Source: Forficula auricularia (Eukaryota > Arthropoda > Insecta > Dermaptera > Forficulidae). From it: a DNA stretch of 64,000 nt. The notes beneath the pieces were generated by a model. It had not been told where the DNA came from. It did not search any database and saw nothing but the letters and a program-made list of their open reading frames with translations. The first letter of the stretch is position 1, and every line of letters starts with the position of its first letter. Positions 830-61,725 of this stretch are shown here, in pieces. The position numbers and the translations under genes are program-made. The stretch is from NCBI GenBank assembly GCA_024734495.1, contig JALMQS010000264.1, forward strand, positions 1,081,640 through 1,145,639, written 5' to 3'.

Positions 830-872
830 AAACCGAGGTTTCGGAGGGTTCTTCCCTCCTTCTTCATGGTTT
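830..872 (-). ncRNA. Hammerhead-like motif, C3-mutated
   Basis: Read on the minus strand: AAACC, then AUGAAGA (CUGANGA with its first C changed to A), one extra A, a perfect 6-bp hairpin GGAGGG/CCCUCC with a 5-nt loop, GAAA, CCUC, then GGUUU. The last pairs with the opening AAACC, giving a 5-bp stem I. The order of parts is that of a type I hammerhead. The altered C3 and the extra A before stem II suggest a dead relic. Confidence 0.4.
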
Positions 873-16174: not shown

Positions 16175-16372
16175 ATTGAAGGAGACAATAAAAGTTAATG
16201 TCTTCTAGCTGGAATTATAAATTTTATTTATTTATAACGAGACTATAGTTTCGAGGGCTTTCTATGAATCCTTGTAATAGACTGATGAAGAGGCAAAACA
16301 TATCAACTATAGTCTCGTTATAAATGCATAAAATTTATAATTCCAGCAGAAGACACACCTATTGTCTCAATG
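16175..16372. mobile_element. 198-bp palindromic element with hammerhead-like centre
   Basis: Arms 16175-16252 and about 16303-16372 are imperfect inverted copies, sharing TGTCTTCT.GCTGGAATT and CGAGACTATAGTT. The centre holds pieces of the hammerhead-like pattern: a CTGATGA word at about 16282-16288 and, on the opposite strand, CUCGAAACUAUAG. The GAAACUAUAGUCUC segment is shared with 15490-15530. The motif is incomplete here. Confidence 0.6.
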
Positions 16373-18715: not shown

Positions 18716-20105
18716 AGAATCTGGTTCTCGAAAACGGCTCTAATGATTTCGCTAAAAACTCGTGTACCTATCAAGTCTCATGAGTTATTAGTCGTTAGTA
18801 TACATTTTAATGGGGATTGAAATCAAAGGAAAGGGTGTATATTAGTCATGTGGCAAAATAAATATTTTAACCGTTCATATCTCGTCTTCGGTAAGTCGCA
18901 GAGCCTTGACCGTTTGAAACTTAAGCTATCCTAGAGGCTACAATACGTACCAGAAGATTTTGGCTAAATTTGAGTTGCCGGAAGTTGATGTTTACTTACG
19001 TAATAATGTGCCTCCCCCTCCCGCTGTGTGTCCGCAACCATAAATCTAGAGCCTCGAGTGAAACTTAAGCTCGATATAGGCTAAAAGAAGTACAGGAAAT
19101 TTTGCTTGAAATCGGAACTACACGTAAGTTGACATTTACATGAAAGATTTTTCGTTTTTTTTTATTTTCTTAAAAACGGCACAAACAATTTTTTTTAAAT
19201 GGAGTATACTTATCCCAAAGTGTCTTTGAGTTATTAGTCGTGTATATGCTTTTAATCCGATTGAAATAAAGGAAGGGGGTCTAAATTAGGAGTGTAGTAA
19301 AATAAATATTTCAATCATTCATATCTCGTCTTCTGTAAGTCGCAGAGCCTTGAAATTTGAAACTTAAACTATTTAGAGGCAAGAAGTTACCGAGCATCGC
19401 TCAGTGATCAAAGCACTTTAATTTAATTACGCAATTTAATTTACAAGTTACAGTTATTAGTCGTGTATACATTTTAATGGGATTGAAATAAAGGAAGGGG
19501 TGTAAATTAGTCATGTGGCAAAATAAATATTTTAACCGTTCATATCTCGTCTTCGGTAAGTCGCAGAGCCTTGAAATTTGAAACTTAAGCTATCTAGAGG
19601 CTACAATAAGTACCAGAAGATTTTGGCTAAAATTGGAGTACCGGAAGTTGATGTTTACTTACGTAATAATGTACTCCCCACTCCCGCTGTGTATCGCAAC
19701 CATAAATCTAGAGCTACGAAATTCGAAACTTAAGCTCGATATAGGCTAGAAGGAGTACAGGAAATTTTGCTTGAAATCGGAACTACGTAAGTTGACATTT
19801 ACATGAAAGATTTTTCGTTTTTTTTTTTATTTTCTTAAAAACGGCACAAACAATTTTTTTAAATAGGTATACTTATCAAGTGTCATGAGTTATTAGTCGT
19901 GTATATCTTTTAATCCAATTGAAATAAAGGAAGGGGGTCTAAATTAGGAGTGTCGTAAAATAAATATTTCAATCATTCATATCTCGTCTTCTGTAAGTCG
20001 CAGAGCCTTGAAATTTGAAACTTAAACTATTTAGAGGCAAGAAGTTACCGAGCATCCCTCGGTGATCCAAGCAGTTTAATTTAATTACGCAATTTAATTT
20101 ACTTG
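18716..20105 (+). repeat. Repeat family W, tandem dimer of 658 bp
   Basis: Two head-to-tail units with the same landmarks: GTTATTAGTCG, GAAATAAAGGAAGGG, CATATCTCGTCTTC, CGCAACCATAAATCTAGAG, TACAGGAAATTTTGC, and a terminal TTACCGAGCAT palindrome followed by TTTAATTTAATTACGC. The palindromes sit at 19389 and 20047, giving a period of 658. No ORF of note. A terminal short hairpin is reminiscent of Helitron or SINE ends, but CTRR or poly(A) ends are not clear. Confidence 0.8.
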
Positions 20106-21585: not shown

Positions 21586-22647
21586 AATTATCAATATAAT
21601 AAAGTAATGGAGAGGGATTCAGCCAATGGGTAGCCTCTGCTGAATAAAAACTCCCAATTATGGAAAACGTTTCGGCTTTAATTAAATAATGCCATCATCA
21701 GTTCCTAAGAGCTGAAAAAAGCGATAGAGCACACATGTAAAATTACAATAAAATTTTTTACAAAAAATCCAAACTTGTTAATTACAAAATTATATCTTAC
21801 AGTATTAGCGACACAATTAATTTTATAAATAAATTGTCCGCAGGCAGAGTTGTTGTGGATTTTATCATAATATACAAAATTATATGAATTACAAAATGGT
21901 ACATAAATCTTGGTGTGCTCTCACTTGATATACGCAACGTCTCAAGTACAAATATAGCAAATTTCAATTTCATTCAATTAATAATAATAATAATTATGAG
22001 GACATTGATCTAATTAGGATCACTGACCCTCACAAACATCTCTTAATTAAAAGATTTCTCAAAATAATTAACAAACATTAAGAATAACAAAAATTCGAAT
22101 TTAAAATGACAATATATAAAAAATAAAAATAAAAAATAAATTTTTTTCTTCTTTACCTTTTACAATTCTTTCCCCCTTTCTCAATGTTTATTCTACCTGG
22201 GCATCAGTATTTGTCAATATTGACAAGTAAGCATTGCTAAGCCCAATGCAATCAGTTTGAAAAATTAAAAGCCCTTTGCCCATTTGTCTTAATAAAGCAT
22301 TTTTCGGCTAGCAGACGCTTATAATTGTTCCCCAATCTCATCAAGATGACAGCATCATCAACTCTGCCTGCGGACAATTTATTTATAAAATTAATTGTGT
22401 CGCTAATACTGTAAGATATAATTTTGTAATTAACAAGTTTGGATTTTTTGTAAAAATTTTTATTGTAATTTTACATGTGTGCTCTATCGCTTTTTTCAGC
22501 TCTTAGGATCTGATGATGGCATTATTTAATTAAAGCCGAAACGTTTTCCATAATTGGGAGTTTTTATTCATCAGAGGCTACCCATTGGCTGAATCCCTCT
22601 CCATTACTTTATTATATACATATACAGCCATCAAAATTATCAATATA
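21586..22647. mobile_element. Foldback retroelement with 13-bp TSD
   Basis: Element 21599-22634. Its ~250-bp arms (21599-21850, 22369-22616) are inverted copies beginning AAAGTAATGGAGAGGGATTC. A short tail (22617-22634) follows the right arm. It is flanked by the perfect 13-bp direct repeat AATTATCAATATA (21586-21598, 22635-22647), present once in the empty site at 59449-59461. Each arm carries a hammerhead-like motif: 21662-21712 on the minus strand and 22500-22551 on the plus strand (CTGATGA, T, GGC hairpin GCC, GAAACG). The interior has no ORF of note. Confidence 0.85.
22500..22551 (+). ncRNA. Hammerhead-like motif in right foldback arm
   Basis: CUGAUGA at 22510-22516, an extra U, stem II GGC/GCC (3 bp, with a further TTTAATTAAA self-complementary stretch in its loop), then GAAACG. 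Pairing of the flanks (stem I) is weak. The mirror copy is at 21662-21712 on the minus strand. Confidence 0.35.
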
Positions 22648-24057: not shown

Positions 24058-24502
24058 TAATTTTCTAGTTAATAATTAGTAGAGATTGTGGTGTTGGTGC
24101 AAGGTGAAACATCTTTAATAAAGATAAGAGTAAATAAATATTATATTTAATATTCATTTACTATGAGTTAAGATTCTTGGTCACTTGTTTCACATTAAAA
24201 TTAAAAAATTAAAAGATGTACAATTTTTTTCAATATATATATTCTGGCTATCAACCCATCTTCAGTAAGTACAGAAAATAACTCATTTTATTTATCTCAT
24301 TTATTCTTTTTTGTATTTCCTGAAGATGGGTTGATATCCGAAATATATATATATATATATATATATATATTGAAAATTATTTTATATCTTTTAATTTTTT
24401 AATTTTAATGTGAAACAAGTGACCAAGAATCCTTAACTCATTGTATTATAAATGAATATTAAATATAATATTTATTTACTCTTATCTTTAATTTTCTAGT
24501 TA
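24058..24502 (-). mobile_element. Palindromic retroelement with 14-bp TSD
   Basis: Body 24072-24488 is an inverted repeat (arms from about 24119 and up to 24491) around an ATATAT-rich centre. Direct repeats TAATTTTCTAGTTA flank it at 24058-24071 and 24489-24502. The left edge in complement reads ATGTTTCACCTTGCACCAACACC, shared with the elements at 38111-38325, 55548-55761 and 61505-61556. Hammerhead-like motifs lie in both arms: plus strand 24320-24343 (CTGAAGA, T, GG..CC, GAAATA) and minus strand 24242-24265. Confidence 0.8.
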
Positions 24503-26692: not shown

Positions 26693-26935
26693 GAATCGGT
26701 CTTAACGATTTCGCTAAAAATTGGTGAACTTATCAAGTCTCATGAGTTATTTATCGGTATAAATTTTAATCCGATTGAAATAAAGGAAGGGTTTGTAAAT
26801 TAGTCATGTCGCAAAATAAATATTTTAATCGTTCATATCTAGTCTTCGGTAAGTCGCAGAGACTTGAAATTTGAAACTTAAGCTATTTAGAGGTAAAAAG
26901 TTACCGAGCATCGCTCGGTGCTCCAGGCACTATAT
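26693..26935 (+). repeat. Repeat family W, short copy
   Basis: Starts AGAATCGGTCTTAACGATTTC, continues through AAGTCTCATGAGTTATT and AGTCTTCGGTAAGTCGCAGA, and ends TTACCGAGCATCGCTCGGTG, a perfect 7-bp stem palindrome. Internally deleted relative to the units at 18.7-20.1 kb, it keeps the 5' edge and the 3' hairpin, so both are probably true element ends. Confidence 0.75.
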
Positions 26936-27280
26936 ACACTTGGGAGCAAAAAAATCGGCCCACCTCTAAATTTTCACCTTTATAAGGAATAACTTCAAAA
27001 AATGCATTTATTTCTAAAAATGAAATTGTGAAAAGAATGAACTCTTGGCTTGAAAAAAATATACACTTCAGATTCTAAAGACATTACATTTTACTTTTTA
27101 AGGAGTTGATAAAAAAGTTGATAAAATCACTAAATAAAGATTCGGGATTTTAGAGTGGTATAAAACGAAAAAACATATAAAATAAAAAAAGAATTTGTAT
27201 TTTAATAATTGATATTAGCACCCCTTTTAGAAAAAAAAATATCAGATCAAATTGTATCAGATAATTAAGTTTTCCAGTTA
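26936..27280. other. Possible Tc1-like end, otherwise unannotated
   Basis: CACTTGGGAGCAAAAAAATCG at 26938, directly after family W, resembles the terminal sequence of some Tc1-like transposons. No opposite end found. The rest is AT-rich and unrecognised. Confidence 0.2.
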
Positions 27281-27469: not shown

Positions 27470-27725
27470 TGCCCTCTTCTGGATATTTATTTTTTTAATA
27501 AAATGGCTATGGTGTCAGTATCATAAGAAAAGGTAAAAATAAAAATGTAATTTTTTATTTAATCTATTATTTTAGGAAATAGTGTGTCAATTTATAAACG
27601 TTTCGAGCGCATTTACCGCTCTTCATCAGTACACACTCGCTGGAAAATCAACAGACCATGTCTTAATATGTTATTTTTACCTTTTCCTAATGATCCTGGC
27701 TCTTTAGTAATTTTACTAAAATAAA
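27470..27725 (-). mobile_element. Small repeat carrying a hammerhead-like motif
   Basis: Homologous to 36296-36440 (opposite orientation) and partly to 52170-52270: shared CTCGAAAC, TTTTTTATTTAATCTATTA and a TTTACCTTTTCCTA / TTTTTCCTACGATACT segment. Target duplications not fixed. Confidence 0.5.
27581..27637 (-). ncRNA. Hammerhead-like motif with 7-bp stem I
   Basis: Read on the minus strand: AGUGUGU, A, CUGAUGA, extra A, stem II GAGCG/CGCUC (5 bp, 7-nt loop), GAAA, a 13-nt segment CGUUUAUAAAUUG, then ACACACU. Stem I AGUGUGU/ACACACU is perfect over 7 bp. The base before stem I is G rather than the expected H, so cleavage is doubtful even if the fold forms. Confidence 0.45.
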
Positions 27726-27900: not shown

Positions 27901-28305
27901 TTTTTATGTATATGTATATGTGTAAATTTATCAAAATTCAGCCAAATTCTACTTAATGAGATCTTAACAGAAATATCCCACAAACCAAAATAATAAAAAA
28001 AAAATTTACAGACAGGAAAATTAGACTCTTTCAAAAATAATTAATAGAATTTTCGATTTTAGAGAAAATATTTACATGTAACTTATATAGCCTCTGACGG
28101 ATGAACAGAGATATATTATATCGACACTACTAGTCATAAGGTTCCGTTTTGCTTTTGTTTGGAGCCTTAATTAATAAATTGCAGTTGAAATTTTGATGGA
28201 TAGATTATTTTCAAACAGTGAAGTAATTAGAAAATTAGGTAATTATCTTTATAACACTCGTATCCATATTAAAATTCATAGAAACATTACTTGTTTTGTC
28301 ATTCC

Positions 28306-28347
28306 AGCCACTGAGGAAGTCAAAATAAATTGACGAAAAGTCTGGCT
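28306..28347 (+). ncRNA. Hammerhead-like motif, best-formed example
   Basis: AGCCA (28306-28310), CUGAGGA (28311-28317), extra A, stem II GUCAA/UUGAC (28319-28323 with 28330-28334), GAAA (28335-28338), AGUC, then UGGCU (28343-28347). Stem I AGCCA/UGGCU is perfect and directly abuts both CUGAGGA and the GUC triplet, as in a type I hammerhead with a vestigial stem III. Related loci: 42816-42859 and 52678-52716. The extra A before stem II is the one departure from the canonical core. Confidence 0.5.
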
Positions 28348-28419
28348 TATTTAATTAAAGCTCTGTGTTTATAATTTAAAATCTTTATCCAGTTCTCTAC
28401 GATTCCTTCTATTAGGCAA

Positions 28420-29690
28420 TTAAAATTTCATACTTAAATATTAGAACTATTATCTTTTAAAGACGGAATGTCAGAATTCAATCAAGAATTGGGAATTTAA
28501 CTCAAGGATAATGAAAAAATAAAATTCCGAGTAAAATAAACTTGTAATAGGAAACAAAAATATCTACATATACTCGACAAATACAAGTATTTTGTGTAGA
28601 GCTGAAGCGTTTTTTGCAAATTAAATTTAGATATATATGTGTGTGTGTGATTGTGTATATATATTTGAATATATATATAGTACATATTTATGGAATCATG
28701 GTGTATACCAACAATAGTGTATTCTACTAACACATGGTATTGGTACTCAAATGTTGAGCAATAGGCGTTAAGAACCATTTGTAGACAAAAAGTACTAATT
28801 TTTGAAAAAAATCGAAAAAAAGTGGTTTTTTGACACGCGCTAGTACCTTTCTACTTAATCTAAATAGATGAAATTGTTATCATTTTACGAATAAAATTCT
28901 CAAAAAAAGAATTTGATTTTTCATTTTCCTTCTATTGACTTTCAATCAATTCTCCTCAATATTTCATATATTTTTAGCCACATATTAATAGCTTGACAGT
29001 AATTTCAAAAAGTAATTTTTCTTTAAATTTATTAGACTTAGAATTAAAGGTACAAAAGGATATATTATAACTATTTTAAACCTCTACTTGCAATTATATA
29101 AAGCTGTCTTAAAAATAATAATTTAATGTGGTCGTTAAAACTTGTTCTAAAAATTTTAATATTTTCATAAGACATACTAATATACTATTATAAAATATTC
29201 TAAGGATGTGCAATTTTCCATGCTATTTAACCCTTTTAAATTCACGGACGTGAATCCAAGACATTTATTTTAAAATTTATTCTTTGTGTTTGATCGCTTG
29301 CCCATTAATTTACTTTCTATTTCAATTACAAATCTACTACTTATTCGTTCTGTTTTTTCGCTCAGTGAAAGTGGAAAGGAATTAGAGAAGCAACTTCAAA
29401 AGAGTATCCAGTAAATATCCATTAAACATAGAGCGTTCATTCAAGGCTAATACATAATGAATAGATAGATACACAGGCGAGTTAATGAAATTAACGGATA
29501 TGCCCTGAAGAGGATTAGCTTGCAATAAACTATAAAACTGTATGGTGGGGATTATTTTACAATTAATTAAATAATTAAAGAAAAGTTTCTTATGTAATTG
29601 TGTGGATCTAATTAATTTATATCAGTCGGTATCAGAATAAACAAAGAAGTTATGCGTGAACACACATAAGAAAAAAACGTGCAATACCAA
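28420..29690. other. AT-rich, no gene recognised
   Basis: Contains TGTGTG and ATATAT microsatellite patches (28635-28680). The 93-codon reverse ORF there is a translated microsatellite. Nothing else supported. Confidence 0.5.
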
Positions 29691-30596: not shown

Positions 30597-31388
30597 GATA
30601 TTGATACAAGAAGAAGTTGCACCAAGAAGGTACAACCTCTTGAAGTCCGTGGTGGACCCTTGTAACGTGAAGATAAGGGGAGATTTAGGGATTGGGTAGA
30701 GGTCGAAGGTATCTGTGGATGCTGGTCTTGAAAGTTTGAAGGTTATAAGTAGCTGGAAAGACGGTCGGGGGAAGAGAATTCCAGTCTCTAGATGTCATAG
30801 GGATAAATGAATTGGCGAATGCGTTTGTTCGATTAGTATCTAGTTTAAGCGCGTAGGGGTGTTGAATTTTAGAAAATCGTGTATTTCGGGCAAATGAAGC
30901 CTTTGGTGGGATTATCGATTTTATTTCGTCAGAACAAAAGCCATGGTAATATCTATAAAAAAGGGATAGGGCGGAGACAGATCTACGATGGGCTAGGGAG
31001 TCGAGTGTAGGATCGCCTATCAGTCTGATAGCTCGCCTCTGAATTGCATCTAAGGTATTAAGAGAATTTTGTGAGCCCCATTTATTCAGTTTGTCTAGGT
31101 CGAGAGTAATTGACGAGGTAACATTGATTCGATTATTCGGGAGTGAGGGTTTGCCGTGTAGAGTGCTATCGTCGGCGTAACAATGAGTGGGGTTTGCAGT
31201 TTGATCGAAAAGGTCGTTTATATAAATTAGGAAGAGTGTGGAGGAGATTACGGAGCCTTGGGGAACACCATAGTTTGTGGAGAACGATTCAGATGATGTT
31301 CCATCCACCACAACTTTTATACTTCGGTTTGTCAGAAAGCTTTCTATCCATTTGCGAAGAGTTGGTGTGAATCCGAAGGCTGGCTCTC
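30566..31388 (-). pseudogene. LINE fragment B, with catalytic motif but internal deletion
   Basis: One open frame from 31388 to 30685 on the minus strand. From residue numbering at the Met codon at 31311: GVPQGS at 15-20 and the reverse transcriptase YADD at 45-48, then DKLNKWGSQN (73-82) runs straight into SLNTLDAIQRRA. In fragment A about 100 residues separate the corresponding parts, so B has an in-frame deletion. The ending WNSLPPTVFPATYNLQTFK, 3' UTR and poly(A) tail (T run 30566-30590) are intact. No endonuclease domain. Its tail abuts the 5' end of fragment A, giving a head-to-tail pair. Confidence 0.9.
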
Positions 31389-36295: not shown

Positions 36296-36440
36296 TTTTC
36301 CAGTGGGCGTGCACTGATGAAGAACTTCGCTAAATGCTCTCGAAACTTACTTCTGACTAATATAATAGATTAAATAAAAAAGACAATTTTTTCCTTTTTC
36401 CTACGATACTCGCCCCTTAGCCATTTTGTTAAAATAAACT
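36296..36440 (+). mobile_element. Hammerhead-like repeat, relative of 27470-27725
   Basis: CTGATGA at 36314-36320, extra A, a decayed stem II, then GAAAC at 36342-36346 and TATAATAGATTAAATAAAAAA downstream. Stem II pairs over only about 2 bp, so this copy is a relic. Confidence 0.45.
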
Positions 36441-38110: not shown

Positions 38111-38325
38111 AAATTATATTAGGTTGGAGTTGGTGGTGTTTCACAAAGAGATAAAATAAAATAATTACATATTTTTTTAAATTTCTCAATATATTTCGGG
38201 TTGTTAGCCCATCGTCAGGAGTACATACATCAACTAAAAGATAAGTGAGAAATTAAAAAAAAATATATATAATTATTTCATTTTTTCTCTTTGTGAAACA
38301 CTACCAACTCCAACCTAATATAATT
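38111..38325. mobile_element. Palindromic element with GTTTCAC ends and hammerhead-like motif
   Basis: AATTATATTAGGTTGGAGTT at the left is exactly complementary to the right end; both arms continue with GTGTTTCACAAAGAG. The minus strand at 38194-38218 reads CTGACGA, T, GGGC..GCCC-like stem (GGG/CCC), GAAATA. The ends relate to 24058-24502 and 55533-55776. The palindromic ends prevent a clear call on target duplication. Confidence 0.7.
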
Positions 38326-38699: not shown

Positions 38700-39270
38700 G
38701 TGTGATTTATTGGTTTCAAGAAGGTTTGGCATGGTCACGTGAAGCTTTGTGGTAGGTTGATTGGTCTGTGTCTTTTTAATCTTGTTGGTGGTAATGTATT
38801 TATCATGCCTTGAGCGTACTCATTTGTGTGGTGAGTTAATCTGTTTAGGTACTTGTGGCTGTGTTGTCTTATTTCGTCTTTGAGGGAAGTTATTTCTATC
38901 TCTTTTAGTATAGTCGAGTTTGGTACCCCTCTGGGGACATCAACGATTGCTCTCAGCGCTTTGTTTTGGAATCTTTGGATAATTTCTATGTTGGATTCAG
39001 CTGCCGAACCCCAGAGTTGTATGCCATATGTCCATATTAGTTTTATTATTGTTTTGTAGATGAGTATTTTGTTGGTTTTAGTCATTTGTGAGCGTTTACC
39101 AATTAGCCAGTATGATTTTTGAAGTTTAAGACCCAGTTGTTTGCGTTTCGTCTTGATGCGCTTTTGCCAGGTCAGTCAGTCTTCTGTCTAGATCTCTAGG
39201 TGCATCCCAAGGTACTTTGCGTGGCTAGTTTAAGGAATAGGTTTATTGAAGATTTTGATCGTGAGAGAAG
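38700..39270 (-). pseudogene. Jockey-clade LINE fragment
   Basis: Minus strand. A 116-codon open part (39085-38735) reads KILIYKTIIKLIWTYGIQLW, SNIEIIQRFQNKALRAIVDV and NRLTHHTN, ending in RLKRHRPINL, the conserved C-terminal region of Jockey-type reverse transcriptases. Upstream in the same strand, with a stop or shift, are YLGMHLE and LGLKLQKSYWLIGKRS, which precede it in intact elements. The catalytic core and endonuclease are missing. This is a different family from LINE fragments A-C. Confidence 0.88.
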
Positions 39271-39624: not shown

Positions 39625-39668
39625 GTTGCAGACTGACGATGACGGATAGGTGATATCGAAACTAGTCT
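39625..39668 (+). ncRNA. Hammerhead-like motif, weak
   Basis: CTGACGA at 39633-39639, extra T, a stem II of about 2-3 bp (GA/UC), then GAAAC at 39658-39662 and UAGUCUCC. Three bases of stem I pairing (AGA/UCU). The reverse 102-codon ORF around it has no recognised domain. Confidence 0.3.
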
Positions 39669-42815: not shown

Positions 42816-42859
42816 GGGCCACTTAGGAAATCAAAATAAATTGACGAAACGTCTGACCC
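42816..42859 (+). ncRNA. Hammerhead-like motif, relative of 28306-28347
   Basis: GGGCCA, CUUAGGA (CUGAGGA with G5 changed to U), A, a UCAA/UUGA stem (42831-42834 with 42841-42844) then C, GAAA (42846-42849), CGUC, UGACCC. Stem I GGGCCA/UGACCC has one mismatch. The changed G5 would be expected to inactivate a hammerhead. Confidence 0.4.
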
Positions 42860-44950: not shown

Positions 44951-46067
44951 TATATAATATATATATATTTACTTTTATATGTAGTATTAATCGAAATGTC
45001 AATGGATCTTTGATAGATAATTAAGAAAAATCTAATTAAAAGTTATTTTCAGCTTTTTAAAAATTGCCGTTTCAACAGATATTTTCACTTTTTCAGGGTT
45101 TAAAAGGGTCAAAGGTCAGATAAATTTCTAAATTGGATTGTCTTTTTAAACCCAGGGAATATTTTCTTAAACGTCGAATTTAAAAAAGTTGAAAACGACA
45201 TTTAAATATAGTTTTATTTTTTTATTTTAAAATTCGTTCTTTTTACTATTCTTGTCTGCTACTTTATCCAAATTCCATATCTATACCAACCCGCTCCAAA
45301 AGAATACTTAGAAATATTTTTTTGTTGAAATTTAAACAGATATAACTTTTCAAAGTTTCAACATTAGTTAACATAATTTAATATTGTATTGGTATTATAC
45401 TAGATAAAATAAGTATTATTAAGGTTAGCCAGGTTCGCCGCGTTTCTATTCAGACCCCTGACAATGTAAAATTTTACCCCTTAGAGAAATTTACACTGCT
45501 TTTATATACACATATAAAATCATATTAAAAAAAGTACTACATTCATTTGGATTTTTTTTCTTAAAAAGAGAAATAAAACATTTGACCATTCCCGTATAAT
45601 TATTTCAATATGATTTTAACTTTTAAATTTTTTTGTTATTTTGTAGATTCTTCTTATCGATGATTCGTCTCTAGTGATGTCTTGAATCTATTTTTCGGCG
45701 ACGTTTCGAGCAATATCTGAGGTATACAAGACACGAGTAGTCAAGGAATATCGCGTGACTACAACCCACCGAGTTAATCAGTATCAAAGAAAGGTTTGTA
45801 TATATCAATGCGGGGTGCAGAATTATTCAATTAAATTAGTTCGATCGATTTTCTAGACATATTTAATTTAAAAAAATATAATCTAGATAATTAGCTAGCT
45901 ATATGGTTTATTTTTGGATTCAGCATTGATTAACTGAATGCCTTCGTTAGATTGTAGGGTATTTTTTTCAGCTCATCTTCTGGATCATTGAGCTTTACAT
46001 CATTAGGGAATAATAATAATAATAAGAGTAAAAATTTTCAAACATTAATTATTAATTGATAGAGTTT
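44951..46067. other. No gene recognised
   Basis: 45680-45720 in reverse contains CUCGAAACGUCGCC, a possible decayed hammerhead-like half. Otherwise AT-rich and unassigned. Confidence 0.35.
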
Positions 46068-46174
46068 TTCTTTAGGAGACGGACTGGTATAAATATGCAA
46101 TTGGATGTTGATGAAAGCAGTCCACGGTGGTTGTAAAAAATAAGACTATAGAGGTTTTATTATTTTACATTTAT

Positions 46175-46225
46175 TTGTTAAACCGACGTTTCGGAGATTT
46201 ATTCTCTCCTTCTTCAGGGTAACAA
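46175..46225 (-). ncRNA. Hammerhead-like motif, left arm
   Basis: Mirror of 46444-46494: UUGUUACC, CUGAAGA, extra A, GGAGA/UCUCC hairpin, GAAA, CGUC, GGUUUAACAA. Confidence 0.5.
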
Positions 46226-46443
46226 AAGTCAATGAAAGTAGTTCAAATCATAATTACTTTCTGTCTCCTTTGACAATGCCAAAAAAACATTATAAAAATT
46301 TTTCATCTCGAATAGAAATAAAGTAAAAAGCAATTTCCTTTTTACTTTATTTCTATTCGAGATGAAAATTTTTTATAATGTTTTTTTGGCATTGTCAAAG
46401 GAGACAGAAAGTAATTATGATTTGAACTACTTTCATTGACTTT

Positions 46444-46494
46444 TTGTTACCCTGAAGAAGGAGAGAATAAATCTCCGAAACGTCGGTTTAACAA
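46444..46494 (+). ncRNA. Hammerhead-like motif, right arm
   Basis: UUGUUACC, CUGAAGA (46452-46458), extra A, stem II GGAGA/UCUCC (5 bp, 7-nt loop), GAAA (46477-46480), CGUC, GGUUUAACAA. Stem I pairs CC with GG, then UUGUUA with UAACAA across a small internal loop. The ACGU around the expected cleavage triplet is self-complementary, so a second copy could complete stem III, as in dimeric hammerheads with very short stem III. Confidence 0.5.
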
Positions 46495-46808
46495 ATAAAT
46501 GTAAAATAATAAAACCTCTATAGTCTTATTTTTTTACAACCACCGTGGACTGCTTTCATCAACATCCAATTGCACCAATTATTAAATTCACTTAAAATAA
46601 AGTTCACTCTTGAAATCCTGGGAAAAAATATCATGAGATTATCTTTGTACTGATTCTGGGGTGCTATTGAGGATTTTATTACATTTCCATGTGAATATTT
46701 CTCTTCTGAAATGTAATAAAATAGATCGGATTCAGTAATATATAATCTCTTGATTTTTATTCAAATTAGTTTTTATATTAAGATTAAAATTGCATTTACT
46801 CGTATACG

Positions 46809-47010
46809 TTAGTTTTTATTATTAAAGTTGTTATAGGGAAATAAAGACTATATCTTTTATGCAAATAACTTATATTTTATTGCCAACGTTTCGTCAACTT
46901 TGTTGACTTCTTCAGGGCTAAATAGTTTAACTTCCCTGCATATTTGTCATTTTTATAATTATTCTTTCTTAGTAAACATATCAAGGCAAGTCATCAACAT
47001 TAGTTTTTAT
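46809..47010 (-). mobile_element. 180-bp element with 11-bp TSD and hammerhead-like motif
   Basis: The direct repeat TTAGTTTTTAT lies at 46809-46819 and 47000-47010 and bounds 46820-46999. Inside, on the minus strand, is the motif at 46882-46918. The target repeat is T-rich and short, so this boundary is less certain than the 13-16 bp cases. Confidence 0.6.
46882..46918 (-). ncRNA. Hammerhead-like motif with perfect 6-bp stem II
   Basis: GCC, CUGAAGA, extra A, GUCAAC/GUUGAC (6 bp, AAA loop), GAAA, CGUU, GGC on the minus strand. Stem I pairs GCC with GGC (3 bp). The GUU triplet fits the NUH rule. Confidence 0.5.
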
Positions 47011-49143: not shown

Positions 49144-49862
49144 GTTACGCGACGGTTTTAGATCCGCGATTTATCCATTTTGATTAGGCCATACGGAGCC
49201 TAGCCGTGTATCGATATTCGTGATCGCGCTCATGACCGTCTCAAGACAGAATACTAGCTTCTTGAAGAAAGAAGAATTCAATAGAATCAATCTGTGCTAT
49301 ATATTTAAATGGGAATTAGGTCTAATTTAGTTTAGAACATGAAGTCACCAAATCGCAAACAAGTGGAATCTTCGGTTACGCGACGGTTTTAGATCCGCGA
49401 TTTATCCATTTCGATTAGGGGGGTTCTTAGGCCATACTGAGCCTAGCCGTGTGTTGATATTTGTGACCGAGCACGCGACTGTCTCAACACAGAAGACCAG
49501 CTTCTTGAAGAAAGAAGAATTCAATAGAATCAATCTGTGCTATTTTTTTTAAATGGGAATTAGGTATAATTTAGTTTAGAACATGAAGTCACCAAAGCGC
49601 AAACAAGTGGAATCTTCGGTTACGCGACGGTTTTAGTTCCGCGATTTATCCATTTCGATTAGGGGGGTTCTTAGGCCATACTGAGCCTAGCCGTGTCGAT
49701 ATTCGTGATCGCGCTCGCGACCGCCTCAACACAGAAAACCAGCTTCTTGAAGAAAGAAGAATTCAATAGAATCAATTTGTGCCATATTTTTAAATGGGAA
49801 TTAGGTCTAATTTAGTTTTGAACATGAAGTCACCAAAGCGCAAACAAGTGGAATCTTCGGTT
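49144..49862 (+). repeat. Three tandem ~240-bp units
   Basis: Units start GTTACGCGACGGTTTTAG at 49144, 49375 and 49619 (periods 231 and 244) and end AAACAAGTGGAATCTTCG. Units 2 and 3 are nearly identical; unit 1 lacks AGGGGGGTTCTT. Each contains CTTCTTGAAGAAAGAAGAA, a short hairpin. The element at 49897-50519 inserted just after the last unit. Confidence 0.9.
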
Positions 49863-49880
49863 AGTAAAAATTTATTTCTC

Positions 49881-50535
49881 AATTATTTTATTAACTAATT
49901 ATTTGATCTTAAATGAGACAATTAAAACCGTGAGAACAGTTATACGTTCTCGTAAGGAGAAAAAAGACTCTTAAGAAAACAAAATCTTCTATGTCCTTAT
50001 CAATATTTTTATTTTAAACTGGGAGACAGTTTTGGCCGACACTCTCAAGCCATCATCAGTCTAAAAAGTACAAACACATAAAACTTTACAATTGCAATAC
50101 AATCAAGAAACAAAGATCAGTCCACTCACCCTCAGTTTTTCAATAGTACATTGGTAACATTAATTTTACATTTTCTCTGCAATTCAACAAAATTCCAACA
50201 CCTGTTGTTATAGATGAGAGTAACGAACCCTTTGGAAAAAATAATTTTCCTCCTTGCAATTCTATAAAATTGAAAAAATATAAAGACATTTTTTCTTTGT
50301 CATATTATCTAAAAATAGGTTCATTATTTGAAATGCTCTCTCACCTTGATTACCAATAACACACTTATCTCTGTTCTTATTATAGCACAAAATTTTTTTT
50401 AAATACAAATGTAACCTTAAATTATTTACATTCAATGAACGTATAACTGTTCTCACGGTTTTAATTGCCTCATTTAAGATCAAATAATTAATAATAAAAA
50501 CATCATAGTACTGCTATCTAATTATTTTATTAACT
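49881..50535 (-). mobile_element. Retroelement with 16-bp TSD and hammerhead-like motif
   Basis: The direct repeat AATTATTTTATTAACT lies at 49881-49896 and 50520-50535 and bounds 49897-50519. The ends carry inverted arms of about 57 bp (49897-49954, 50434-50490; ATTTGATCTTAAATGAG, AACCGTGAGAACAG). On the minus strand at 50021-50065: AGA, CUGAUGA, U, GGC..GCC stem, then AAAAC in place of GAAAC. A reverse 73-codon ORF inside has no known domain. Confidence 0.75.
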
Positions 50536-55532: not shown

Positions 55533-55776
55533 ATGTGAAATTAATTAAATTAAAAATTAATTGACTATATATATTTTGGGCTACGAGCCCATCTTCAGGA
55601 GTTTACATACGTAGATATCTATGTCCGAAATATATATATAGAGTCTTGCTCATATACAATATTTCTTTTATTTGTAATACCTAGCTAGTAATTTATATTT
55701 TTTGAATTTTAATTTTATTAAATATGTTTCACCAAGAACCTACCTTATTCTATTTGAACAAATGTGAAATTAATTA
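55533..55776 (+). mobile_element. 214-bp retroelement with 15-bp TSD
   Basis: Body 55548-55761 is flanked by the perfect 15-bp direct repeat ATGTGAAATTAATTA (55533-55547, 55762-55776). The 3' part reads AAATATGTTTCACCAAGAAC, the family end shared with 24058-24502 and 61505-61556. The minus strand at 55572-55605 has CTGAAGA, T, GGGCT..AGCCC (5 bp), then AAAAUA instead of GAAAUA. A second half-motif GTCCGAAATATATA lies at 55622. Confidence 0.85.
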
Positions 55777-60954: not shown

Positions 60955-61725
60955 TTTTTTTTAAATGATACTGATTCATGAAGTTGCACCGAAAAGGTTC
61001 TGTGCGCGTCTTGAAAGATTGAAAGTTATATTTTGGTGGGAAGACGGTCGGAGGAAGATATTTCCAGTCTCTAGATGTCATAGGGATAAACGAGTTGGCG
61101 AATGCGTTTTTCGGTTAGTATCCAATTAAAGCGTTTAGGGGTGTTGAGTCCTAGAAAATCGTGTATTTCGCGGAAAAGAAGCCTTTGGAGGGATTATTGA
61201 TTTTATCTCTTCAGAACAAAAGACATGGTAGTATTTATAAAAAAGAGAAAGGGCGAAGACAGATCTACGATGGGCCAGGGAGTCGATAGTGTTGGATCTC
61301 CTATCAGTCTGATAGCCCACCTCTGAATTGCACCCAAAGTAGCAAGAGAATGCTTGGAGGCTCCTCTCCACAAAAGCGAGCAATATTCGAGATAGGGTCG
61401 AATATGAGCCTTGTATAAGATAATAAGTTGAGTGGGGGTGAAAAGCGTTTGGTCCTACAGTGATAATATGGTCATTCCAAGAAAGGTCAGAACCCAAGAT
61501 GACATAGTTTTTAAGGAATTTGGTGTTGGTACTTGGTGAAACATTTTTTATCCAATAACCCAAGATGACACCCAACATTGATATTTTGTCACGAAATTCA
61601 AATGAGATGATTTTCCGTTGCCTTACTCTAGATTCGTCAAGTCGCTTTGCATTTTTGATAGAAGCAAACATTATTTTGACTGAAGCGCGATTCAATCTCG
61701 AGTAAACGAGATTAAACGTCAAAAT
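60955..61725 (-). pseudogene. LINE fragment C, carrying a small insertion
   Basis: Minus strand, 195-codon open part (61722-61135). After the 14-bp-flanked insertion comes SDLSWNDHIITV; further on are SLAHRRSVFALSLFYKYYH, SEEIKSIIPPKASFPRNTRF and RTQHP. It retains the poly(A) tail (T run 60955-60962). Between SMLGVILG and SDLSWNDH are 22 extra residues (YWIKNVSPSTNTKFLKNYVI plus LG) that fragment A lacks, encoded by the insertion at 61491-61570. The reading frame survived by chance. A nonhomologous stretch near RSLQAFSCYFG suggests frameshifts. Confidence 0.85.
61491..61570 (-). mobile_element. 52-bp truncated retroelement with 14-bp TSD, inside LINE C
   Basis: The direct repeat AACCCAAGATGACA (61491-61504, 61557-61570) bounds 61505-61556. 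On the minus strand the insert reads AAATGTTTCACCAAGTACCA and ACACCAAATTCC, the 3' end of the family at 24058-24502 and 55533-55776. Fragment A lacks it, so the empty site is known. Confidence 0.88.

Follow-up and report, generated by a model that had tools for sequence, protein, structure and literature searches.

What is the small hammerhead-like RNA motif that recurs along a 64,000-nt stretch of the genome of the dermapteran Forficula auricularia (contig JALMQS010000264.1, positions 1,081,640 to 1,145,639; hereafter the window, whose own numbering we use), and how did its copies arrive there? A sequence-only reading had flagged one copy, at 28306..28347, and had placed the same motif at 16 further sites, in what it took to be unrelated small repeats. 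Our analysis makes it highly probable that the motifs are minimal hammerheads of Penelope-like elements (PLEs), carried in short protein-less copies that were inserted by PLE machinery supplied in trans by resident full-length PLEs. PLEs combine a reverse transcriptase (RT) with a GIY-YIG endonuclease. The feature is of a known kind, since the class of PLE hammerheads has already been described; its extra base and its insertion footprint are worth following.

The letters of the flagged copy agree with the layout first given for it: stem I, CTGAGGA, an extra A, a 5-bp hairpin, GAAA, AGTC and the return strand of stem I.

28306..28347, + strand: flagged motif, with stem I AGCCA/TGGCT at 28306-28310/28343-28347, CTGAGGA at 28311-28317 and the inserted A at 28318
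28319-28334, + strand: stem II hairpin of the flagged motif (GTCAA-aataaa-TTGAC), followed by GAAA (28335-28338), AAGT (28338-28341) and C17 (28342)

AAGT stands here at the stem III position instead of ACGT. The minimum free energy (MFE) fold of the RNA monomer consists of stems I and II (z -1.88; equally good folds in 9 of 200 shuffles). This copy is not the best example of the motif; better ones are those at 46452 (+), 46217 (-) and 46915 (-). In a strict scan of the window, which required an unaltered CTGANGA, allowed up to two extra bases and asked for a stem II of 4 bp or more followed by GAA, six cores were recovered against none in the reversed window, and all six are among the 17 sites; when one core mismatch was permitted, the counts were 14 and 3.

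Recurrence of the motif is real and abundant. In the 1.06-Gb host genome, the pattern CTGANGAAG-N8-24-CGAAACGT has 39,221 matches (19,794 on the + strand and 19,427 on the - strand), far from equal to the 2 + 0 matches of the reversed-pattern control. The pattern does not demand any stem, and a stem II of at least 4 bp is present in 80 of the first 100 genomic matches. Among 29 distinct stem II pairs, 12 are fully paired; when the arms were re-dealt, the mean was 5.1 and the maximum in 2,000 trials was 12.

The source of the motif is indicated by full-length elements in the same genome. A genome search for GIY-YIG returned 3,423 candidates, of which 150 were scored, and eight of these 150 rows lie inside open frames of 825-864 aa. 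Twelve PLE loci were retrieved, selected mainly by their long frames, and the motif lies on the strand of the open reading frame (ORF) in all 12. Both ORFs that were scanned contain RT and GIY-YIG domains (for the ORF called P0001, RVT_1 1.5e-16 and GIY-YIG 7.6e-06). P0001 has 245 protein matches; the named homologues among the 120 listed are mostly arthropod (Euphydryas, Diabrotica, Tribolium and others), with a fluke and a rotifer also represented. The clearest arrangement is that of locus L063 (G000:C563:409500-419400), a tandem PLE array with a period of 2,909 bp in which the motif lies between units, 138 nt upstream of each 858-aa frame and 197 nt past the frame end. It has two open 858-aa frames and four same-family motifs, of which three share a strand and the fourth lies inverted at the far end, and its outer ends carry a 12-bp duplication.

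Among the 30 best GIY-YIG loci, an exact core lies downstream on the same strand in 22 by manual count; two more loci, L037 and L038, have a downstream motif with one core change, and L046 has one decayed opposite-strand copy beside same-strand copies. Under a stricter rule, 16 of the 30 qualify on the same strand and none of the 30 on the opposite one. The GIY-YIG loci include at least three PLE motif families, among which both A and T inserts, and both ACGT and ACTATAGT, are represented. The motif thus lies on the coding strand in PLE terminal repeats of this very genome, which bears out the PLE context proposed earlier. The small repeats, on the other hand, can no longer be called unrelated, as they share motif and anatomy with PLEs that have long frames in this genome. 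They look like non-autonomous, debris-like PLE copies with a predicted minimal hammerhead that lacks an internal helix III. In viral contigs the same pattern formed a stem II of at least 4 bp in four rows (two of them identical) among at least 120 stretches; none of these four occurrences among the matches listed was convincing, and no PLE relative of P0001 was found in the viral contigs.

It had also been proposed that stem pairing is kept while the letters differ, as expected if RNA structure is selected. Alignment A1 comprises 29 rows selected for CTGANGA, GAAA and a paired stem II, and omits L055:1795-1847 (a PLE coding end with a two-base insert); its invariant core and 100% pairing are circular by selection and were excluded from the evidence. 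Covariation was measured in A2, a set of 19 family representatives made up of 17 of the 29 A1 rows and two window rows. The 12 A1 rows outside it are 11 without an ACGT-type stem III and L016:1491-1539 (-), which has ACGT and whose stem I would pair poorly. In A2, 93.2% of the cells of stems I and II are paired against 54.8% after shuffling, two-sided alterations occur in 51 cells against 17.0, and further pair types number 20 against 14.3, each value being reached by 0 of 500 shuffles. Shifting the partner by 1-3 columns lowered pairing to 24-46%. Stem II is paired in 96.1% of cells, 17 of the 19 rows having been chosen for its pairing, and stem I in 89.5%, no row having been chosen for that; all three pairs of stem I show changes on both sides, and the stem is joined at hammerhead spacing. 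Stems I and II therefore covary in this set, in agreement with the proposal.

The claim of one extra base before stem II holds for nearly every core examined. We tallied distinct cores in 345 kb near motifs and PLEs, excluding the seed motifs of L001-L032; the loci partly overlap, and many cores come from the same families. One inserted base follows CTGANGA in 36 of the 37 non-seed cores (22 A, 14 T), with a G-C pair next each time; the exception has a two-base insert at a PLE coding end, and cores with zero insert number 0 of 37. All six strict window cores likewise have exactly one extra base. The canonical layout, in which stem II comes immediately after A9, is not that of these cores. The pattern CTGANGAG has 998 matches genome-wide against 5 for its control; among the 100 matches listed, 61 fit best with G as the insert (three of these equally well), 10 fit best without an insert and 29 are stemless. 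According to passages of PMC10085705, hammerhead alignments include cases with one or two bases inserted between CUGAnGA and the adjoining stems. The hammerheads of PMC10085705 and PMC3088659 resemble ours in having short insertions beside the core; the insertion there is occasional, and cleavage is impaired when it lies beside stem I, whereas here it is near-constant and on the stem II side. Our literature search, which did not cover Cervera and De la Pena (2014) or Lunse et al. (2017), found no description of a near-constant extra base in PLE hammerheads. By analogy, the PAc hammerhead of the Poseidon element of Anolis carolinensis, in which the start codon begins at stem II, suggests that a T-insert form may exist outside this genome.

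The sequence-only reading missed that helix III is absent within one molecule, its place often being taken by ACGT or ACTATAGT. Many families have ACGT directly after GAA; the commonest full-length PLE family has ACTATAGT in that place and others have AT repeats, and no helix III within one molecule was found in the loop-less GAAACGU or GAAACUAUAGU. Since ACGT and ACTATAGT are each self-complementary and loop-less, helix III is impossible within one molecule and possible between two; judged from its letters, such a palindromic stem III suggests a dimer. We used ViennaRNA, with the core held open, to predict dimers for eight sequences. The stem III duplex was used in one of them, the L063 motif (-20.8 against -13.0 kcal/mol for two monomers). 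As modelled, folding software neither supports nor excludes a dimer in general. Among five free monomers, 28306 and 46882 were predicted to fold into stems I and II.

A recognisable copy of the motif exists at each of the 17 sites to which its order had been assigned, although many are weak or decayed. Exact CTGANGA with GAAA in place was found at 12 of the 17 (24242 being scored by eye); the core is mismatched at 830 and 42816, and GAAA is absent from its place at 24242, 50021 and 55572. Relative to the six strict cores, the remaining eleven sites are weaker or decayed. Copies outside the flagged motif include the following.

46449..46487, + strand: intact core, with CTGAAGA at 46452-46458, inserted A, stem II GGAGA/TCTCC, GAAA, ACGT palindrome, C17 and stem I ACC/GGT
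46182..46220, - strand: mirror copy of the 46449..46487 intact core, CTGAAGA beginning at 46217
46882..46918, - strand: intact core of the GTCAAC/GTTGAC family, CTGAAGA beginning at 46915, with stem I GCC/GGC, ACGT and H17 = T; fold z -2.56
27593..27633, - strand: core of the GAGCG/CGCTC family, CTGATGA beginning at 27629, with ACGT and stem I TGTA/TATA
24320..24346, + strand: core of a T-insert family, CTGAAGA t GGGT..ATCC GAAA TATAT; adjacent stem I not found
830..872, - strand: decayed core of the GGAGGG family, C3 changed, stems I and II retained
36314..36345, + strand: weak core, stem II of 2 bp
39633..39667, + strand: weak core with T insert, stem II of 2 bp
42822..42852, + strand: decayed core CTTAGGA related to the 28306 family, ACGT retained
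50030..50059, - strand: decayed core, AAAA replacing GAAA
52678..52716, - strand: weak core, stem I GTCA/TGAC retained, stem II of 2 bp
55574..55598, - strand: decayed core, AAAA replacing GAAA, stem II GGGCT/AGCCC retained

The monomer fold of 46449..46487 has z -3.33, and its MFE structure pairs some core bases. An apparent decayed inverted pair of the GAGGGC PLE family lies at 16205-16347 (CTATAGTTTCGAGGGC / CTGATGAAGAGGC...CTATAGTCTCGT); it is absent from the 17 sites and came to light in an Rfam scan, where it resembled a plant microRNA family below threshold.

Many copies belong to head-to-head palindromes, an arrangement that the sequence-only reading did not see. We looked around 32 seed loci for an inverted partner of the same family. 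In 23 of them, which represent 19 separate elements because four were seeded twice, such a partner occurs 5' of the motif at no more than 1 kb; one of the 32 has a 24-nt match on its 3' side, and seven have no partner. The first 100 genomic matches contain 24 neighbour pairs within 1 kb, of which 16 are -+, five ++, two +- and one --. Stem II is alike in 15 of the 16 -+ pairs, and both +- pairs differ in stem II or loop. Four of the five ++ pairs come from a single array, G000:C4:1022593-1023097; this is a satellite-like run in which five motif copies follow one another in direct tandem about every 115 bp, in contrast to the inverted pairs seen as a rule. Among 12 same-family pairs, eight are palindromic over 93-100% of the inter-motif space and four are not; the eight have innermost spacers of 6-54 nt and centres at differing distances. 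Seven of the 17 window sites lie within inverted pairs or palindromes, in the following elements.

46056..46576, no strand: palindromic element without ORF, with a motif on the - strand, a centre near 46334 and a motif on the + strand
46056..46576, proposed ends: +125 from the motif on the right (short) and +162 from the motif on the left (tail)
21594..22617, no strand: element built as an inverted repeat, its T-insert cores lying at 21701 (-) and 22510 (+); the arms 21594-21855/22356-22617 are 98% identical and the middle is non-palindromic
38112..38325, no strand: decayed palindrome (80%) that includes a T-insert core, at 38218 (-)
24119..24490, no strand: decayed palindrome (78%) holding two cores, at 24265 (-) and 24320 (+), with no pairing seen across the 54 nt that separate their motifs

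The centre of the 46056-46576 palindrome matches exactly only itself, and three other genomic places at 1-2 mismatches, which suggests that palindromes may be made at insertion rather than copied as units.

In the commonest PLE family, copies stop either 135-143 nt (12 copies) or 181-191 nt (13 copies) past the motif, and two of 27 run on. We compared seven loci of this family that have two outward ends; other head-to-head copies, such as L045, lie outside this test. In all seven head-to-head elements of the full-length family, one end is short and the other a tail, and the flanking duplication is exact over 11-13 bp, compared with 4-10 shared bases in 42 mismatched left-right comparisons. Four of six small palindromes have exact duplications of 12-14 bp, found in wider windows that have no control of their own, with short and tail ends 40-53 nt apart. 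The short-plus-tail asymmetry is present in 11 of 11 clear cases. Passages of PMC3846280 and PMC11167929 describe a PLE "tail", and the latter states that reverse transcription begins inside the RNA at two sites; the short and tail ends here match that tail. The window palindrome has the following candidate.

46047..46055, no strand: left copy of candidate target-site duplication AATTATTAA, 9 bp, inside the mismatched-control range and no proof
46577..46585, no strand: right copy of the same, 9 bp

Several results weigh against the conclusion that the window copies are PLE hammerheads. A tblastn search of the window with P0001 (E 0.01) found no PLE protein remnant; the window repeats are therefore at most non-autonomous, and they are tied to PLEs by motif and anatomy only. 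The inverted partner sought for the 28306 motif within 28100-28600 was not found, nor were inverted arms around 28306, 42816, 46882, 52678 and 55572 in the window. No significant duplication flanks L019 (9 bp), L004 (7 bp) or the window element 46056-46576 (9 bp). In A2, pairs with any two-sided change number 6 against 5.5 after shuffling, which is no excess. With its inserted base the core is not canonical, and activity could be reduced or lost as a result. Seven of the eight predicted dimers pair otherwise than through stem III, including that of L048 with the identical ACTATAGT, and the preferred folds of the 46444, 27581 and L063 PLE motif monomers tie up core bases. The proposed check with Rfam hammerhead models went against the motif, which was not recognised: no Rfam family reached threshold in the window, there was no hammerhead among 29 weak window matches, and three short stretches gave a single sub-threshold RAGATH-1 hammerhead match (28301-28352, E 8.6). 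Our confidence is lowered because 28306 and four other window copies have no detected inverted partner and most dimer predictions bypass stem III.

How else might these observations be explained? The PLE origin could be correct and the motif could have ceased to cleave, surviving as an RNA structure that is bound by the PLE protein or links two templates via stem III. An extra base in nearly every examined core would fit such a loss, as would a stem III that is a loop-less palindrome in several families. The Anolis results can be taken either way: according to parts of PMC11167929, hammerhead mutants leave insertion unchanged and no cleavage occurs without protein, but the ribozyme does cleave with protein, C3G/G8C partly rescues, and the authors cite earlier work in which a PLE hammerhead self-cleaved at 3-25 mM Mg2+. 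We nevertheless think a non-cleaving motif unlikely. A scan downstream of GIY-YIG, in which GAAA was required and one CTGANGA mismatch allowed, returned CTGANGA exact in 22 of 24 motifs, an exactness that a docking hairpin would not need, and stem I is attached at hammerhead spacing.

The remaining explanations dispense with PLEs. Short length and inverted repeat structure are what one would see in miniature inverted-repeat transposable elements (MITEs) of a DNA transposon, with a hairpin in their terminal inverted repeats by accident and only a secondary likeness to PLEs. It is very improbable that this is what the small palindromes are, given that PLEs carry the same core on the coding strand, that paired motifs face outward (23 loci against one), that the asymmetric short and tail ends are as in full-length PLEs, with duplications of 11-14 bp, and that the centre of the 46056-46576 palindrome is exact only at itself, with three places at 1-2 mismatches. 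We attach as little credence to animal non-LTR (long terminal repeat) retrozymes, tandem repeats of type I hammerheads that spread via circular RNA; these too are small, non-coding and hammerhead-bearing, and there is the five-copy tandem array G000:C4:1022593-1023097. Retrozyme hammerheads, as portrayed in passages of PMC7229834, have helix III and lie in direct tandem repeats, whereas helix III is absent here and 16 of 24 neighbour pairs are -+, with four of the five ++ pairs from one array. Both readings were rejected, the one on the coding-strand PLE motif, the outward pairs and the short and tail ends, the other on the lack of helix III and the inverted arrangement. Finally, a short motif can be matched by chance alone in AT-rich DNA, and this would account for those sites with weak stem II or altered core bases. 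Counts (39,221 against 2 genome-wide, 6 against 0 in the window) and covariation leave almost no room for chance as a general explanation; it is refuted by the counts for the strict sites, although not for single weak sites such as 36314 and 39633.

We therefore return to minimal PLE hammerheads in copies inserted in trans. Passages of PMC6155905 describe PLEs with minimal hammerheads that lack helix III, and in parts of PMC7761336 thousands of minimal hammerheads are said to be scattered in animal non-coding DNA, where they may act as dimers, their role in PLEs being a mystery. The minimal type I hammerheads of PLEs (Cervera and De la Pena, 2014; Lunse, Weinberg and Breaker, 2017), as represented in passages of reviews, are like ours in pseudo-LTR (pLTR) location, dispersed non-coding copies, loss of helix III and proposed dimer action; on that comparison through reviews only, the near-constant extra A/T between A9 and stem II sets ours apart. 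In the PAc element, according to sections of PMC11167929, PLE copies end at two RT start sites, as here; host and family differ, and cleavage was shown, only with protein. The Adineta vaga Penelope, in the portions of PMC3846280 that bear on it, likewise has head-to-head inverted pLTRs, an optional tail on one of them and junction palindromes, but with duplications of 8-10 bp and mostly bearing ORFs, whereas we find short ORF-less palindromes with 11-14 bp. Newt and axolotl type I hammerheads, in the passages of PMC7229834, have a weak helix III with a palindromic loop and act as dimers; they keep that short helix III and lie in direct tandem repeats, unlike the motifs here.

These comparisons outline a possible mechanism. 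In tandem PLE transcripts, as the literature would have it, two motifs may pair via stem III (ACGU or ACUAUAGU) and cut after C/U17, trimming the RNA. Cutting would probably be slow, auxiliary and helped by the PLE protein, given that the Anolis PLE is cut only with protein and that mutants do not change insertion. For head-to-head copies, cDNA primed at the cut target would reach its end and then be mirrored, either because it folds back and primes itself or because both sides of the break serve as primers. Equal arms meeting at the copy's own centre favour fold-back of finished cDNA, and, by analogy, the Anolis enzyme, which cuts and extends both strands, favours two-sided priming; either route must account for the short-plus-tail asymmetry. 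A bolder scheme, which we offer as a long shot, would make the inserted base the mark of a hammerhead subclass that has given up fast self-cleavage in favour of RNA pairing. A pair of PLE template RNAs would dock via the palindromic stem III, and both ends of a staggered cut would be extended in step. Head-to-head insertions with a short end and a tail end would result, and cleavage would be secondary and protein-dependent.

The window has other repeats as well: a tandem repeat at 49184-49863 (244-bp unit, 2.8 copies, 92% matches), ORF fragments at 30685-31311, 38735-39085 and 61135-61722 that by eye resemble parts of non-LTR reverse transcriptase, and dispersed direct repeats at 18798-20102 and 26756-26958 that are spaced 221-444 bp apart, one copy lying 6.9 kb off.

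Overall, for the minimal hammerheads dispersed through this genome, the sample here points to head-to-head copies (23 of 32) built like resident PLE insertions. Their recurring extra base allows a direct test of whether such ribozymes still cut. PMC3846280, in the part concerned, left open how PLEs come to make inverted copies, and the footprint seen here, a duplication plus a short end and a tail end, is relevant to that question.
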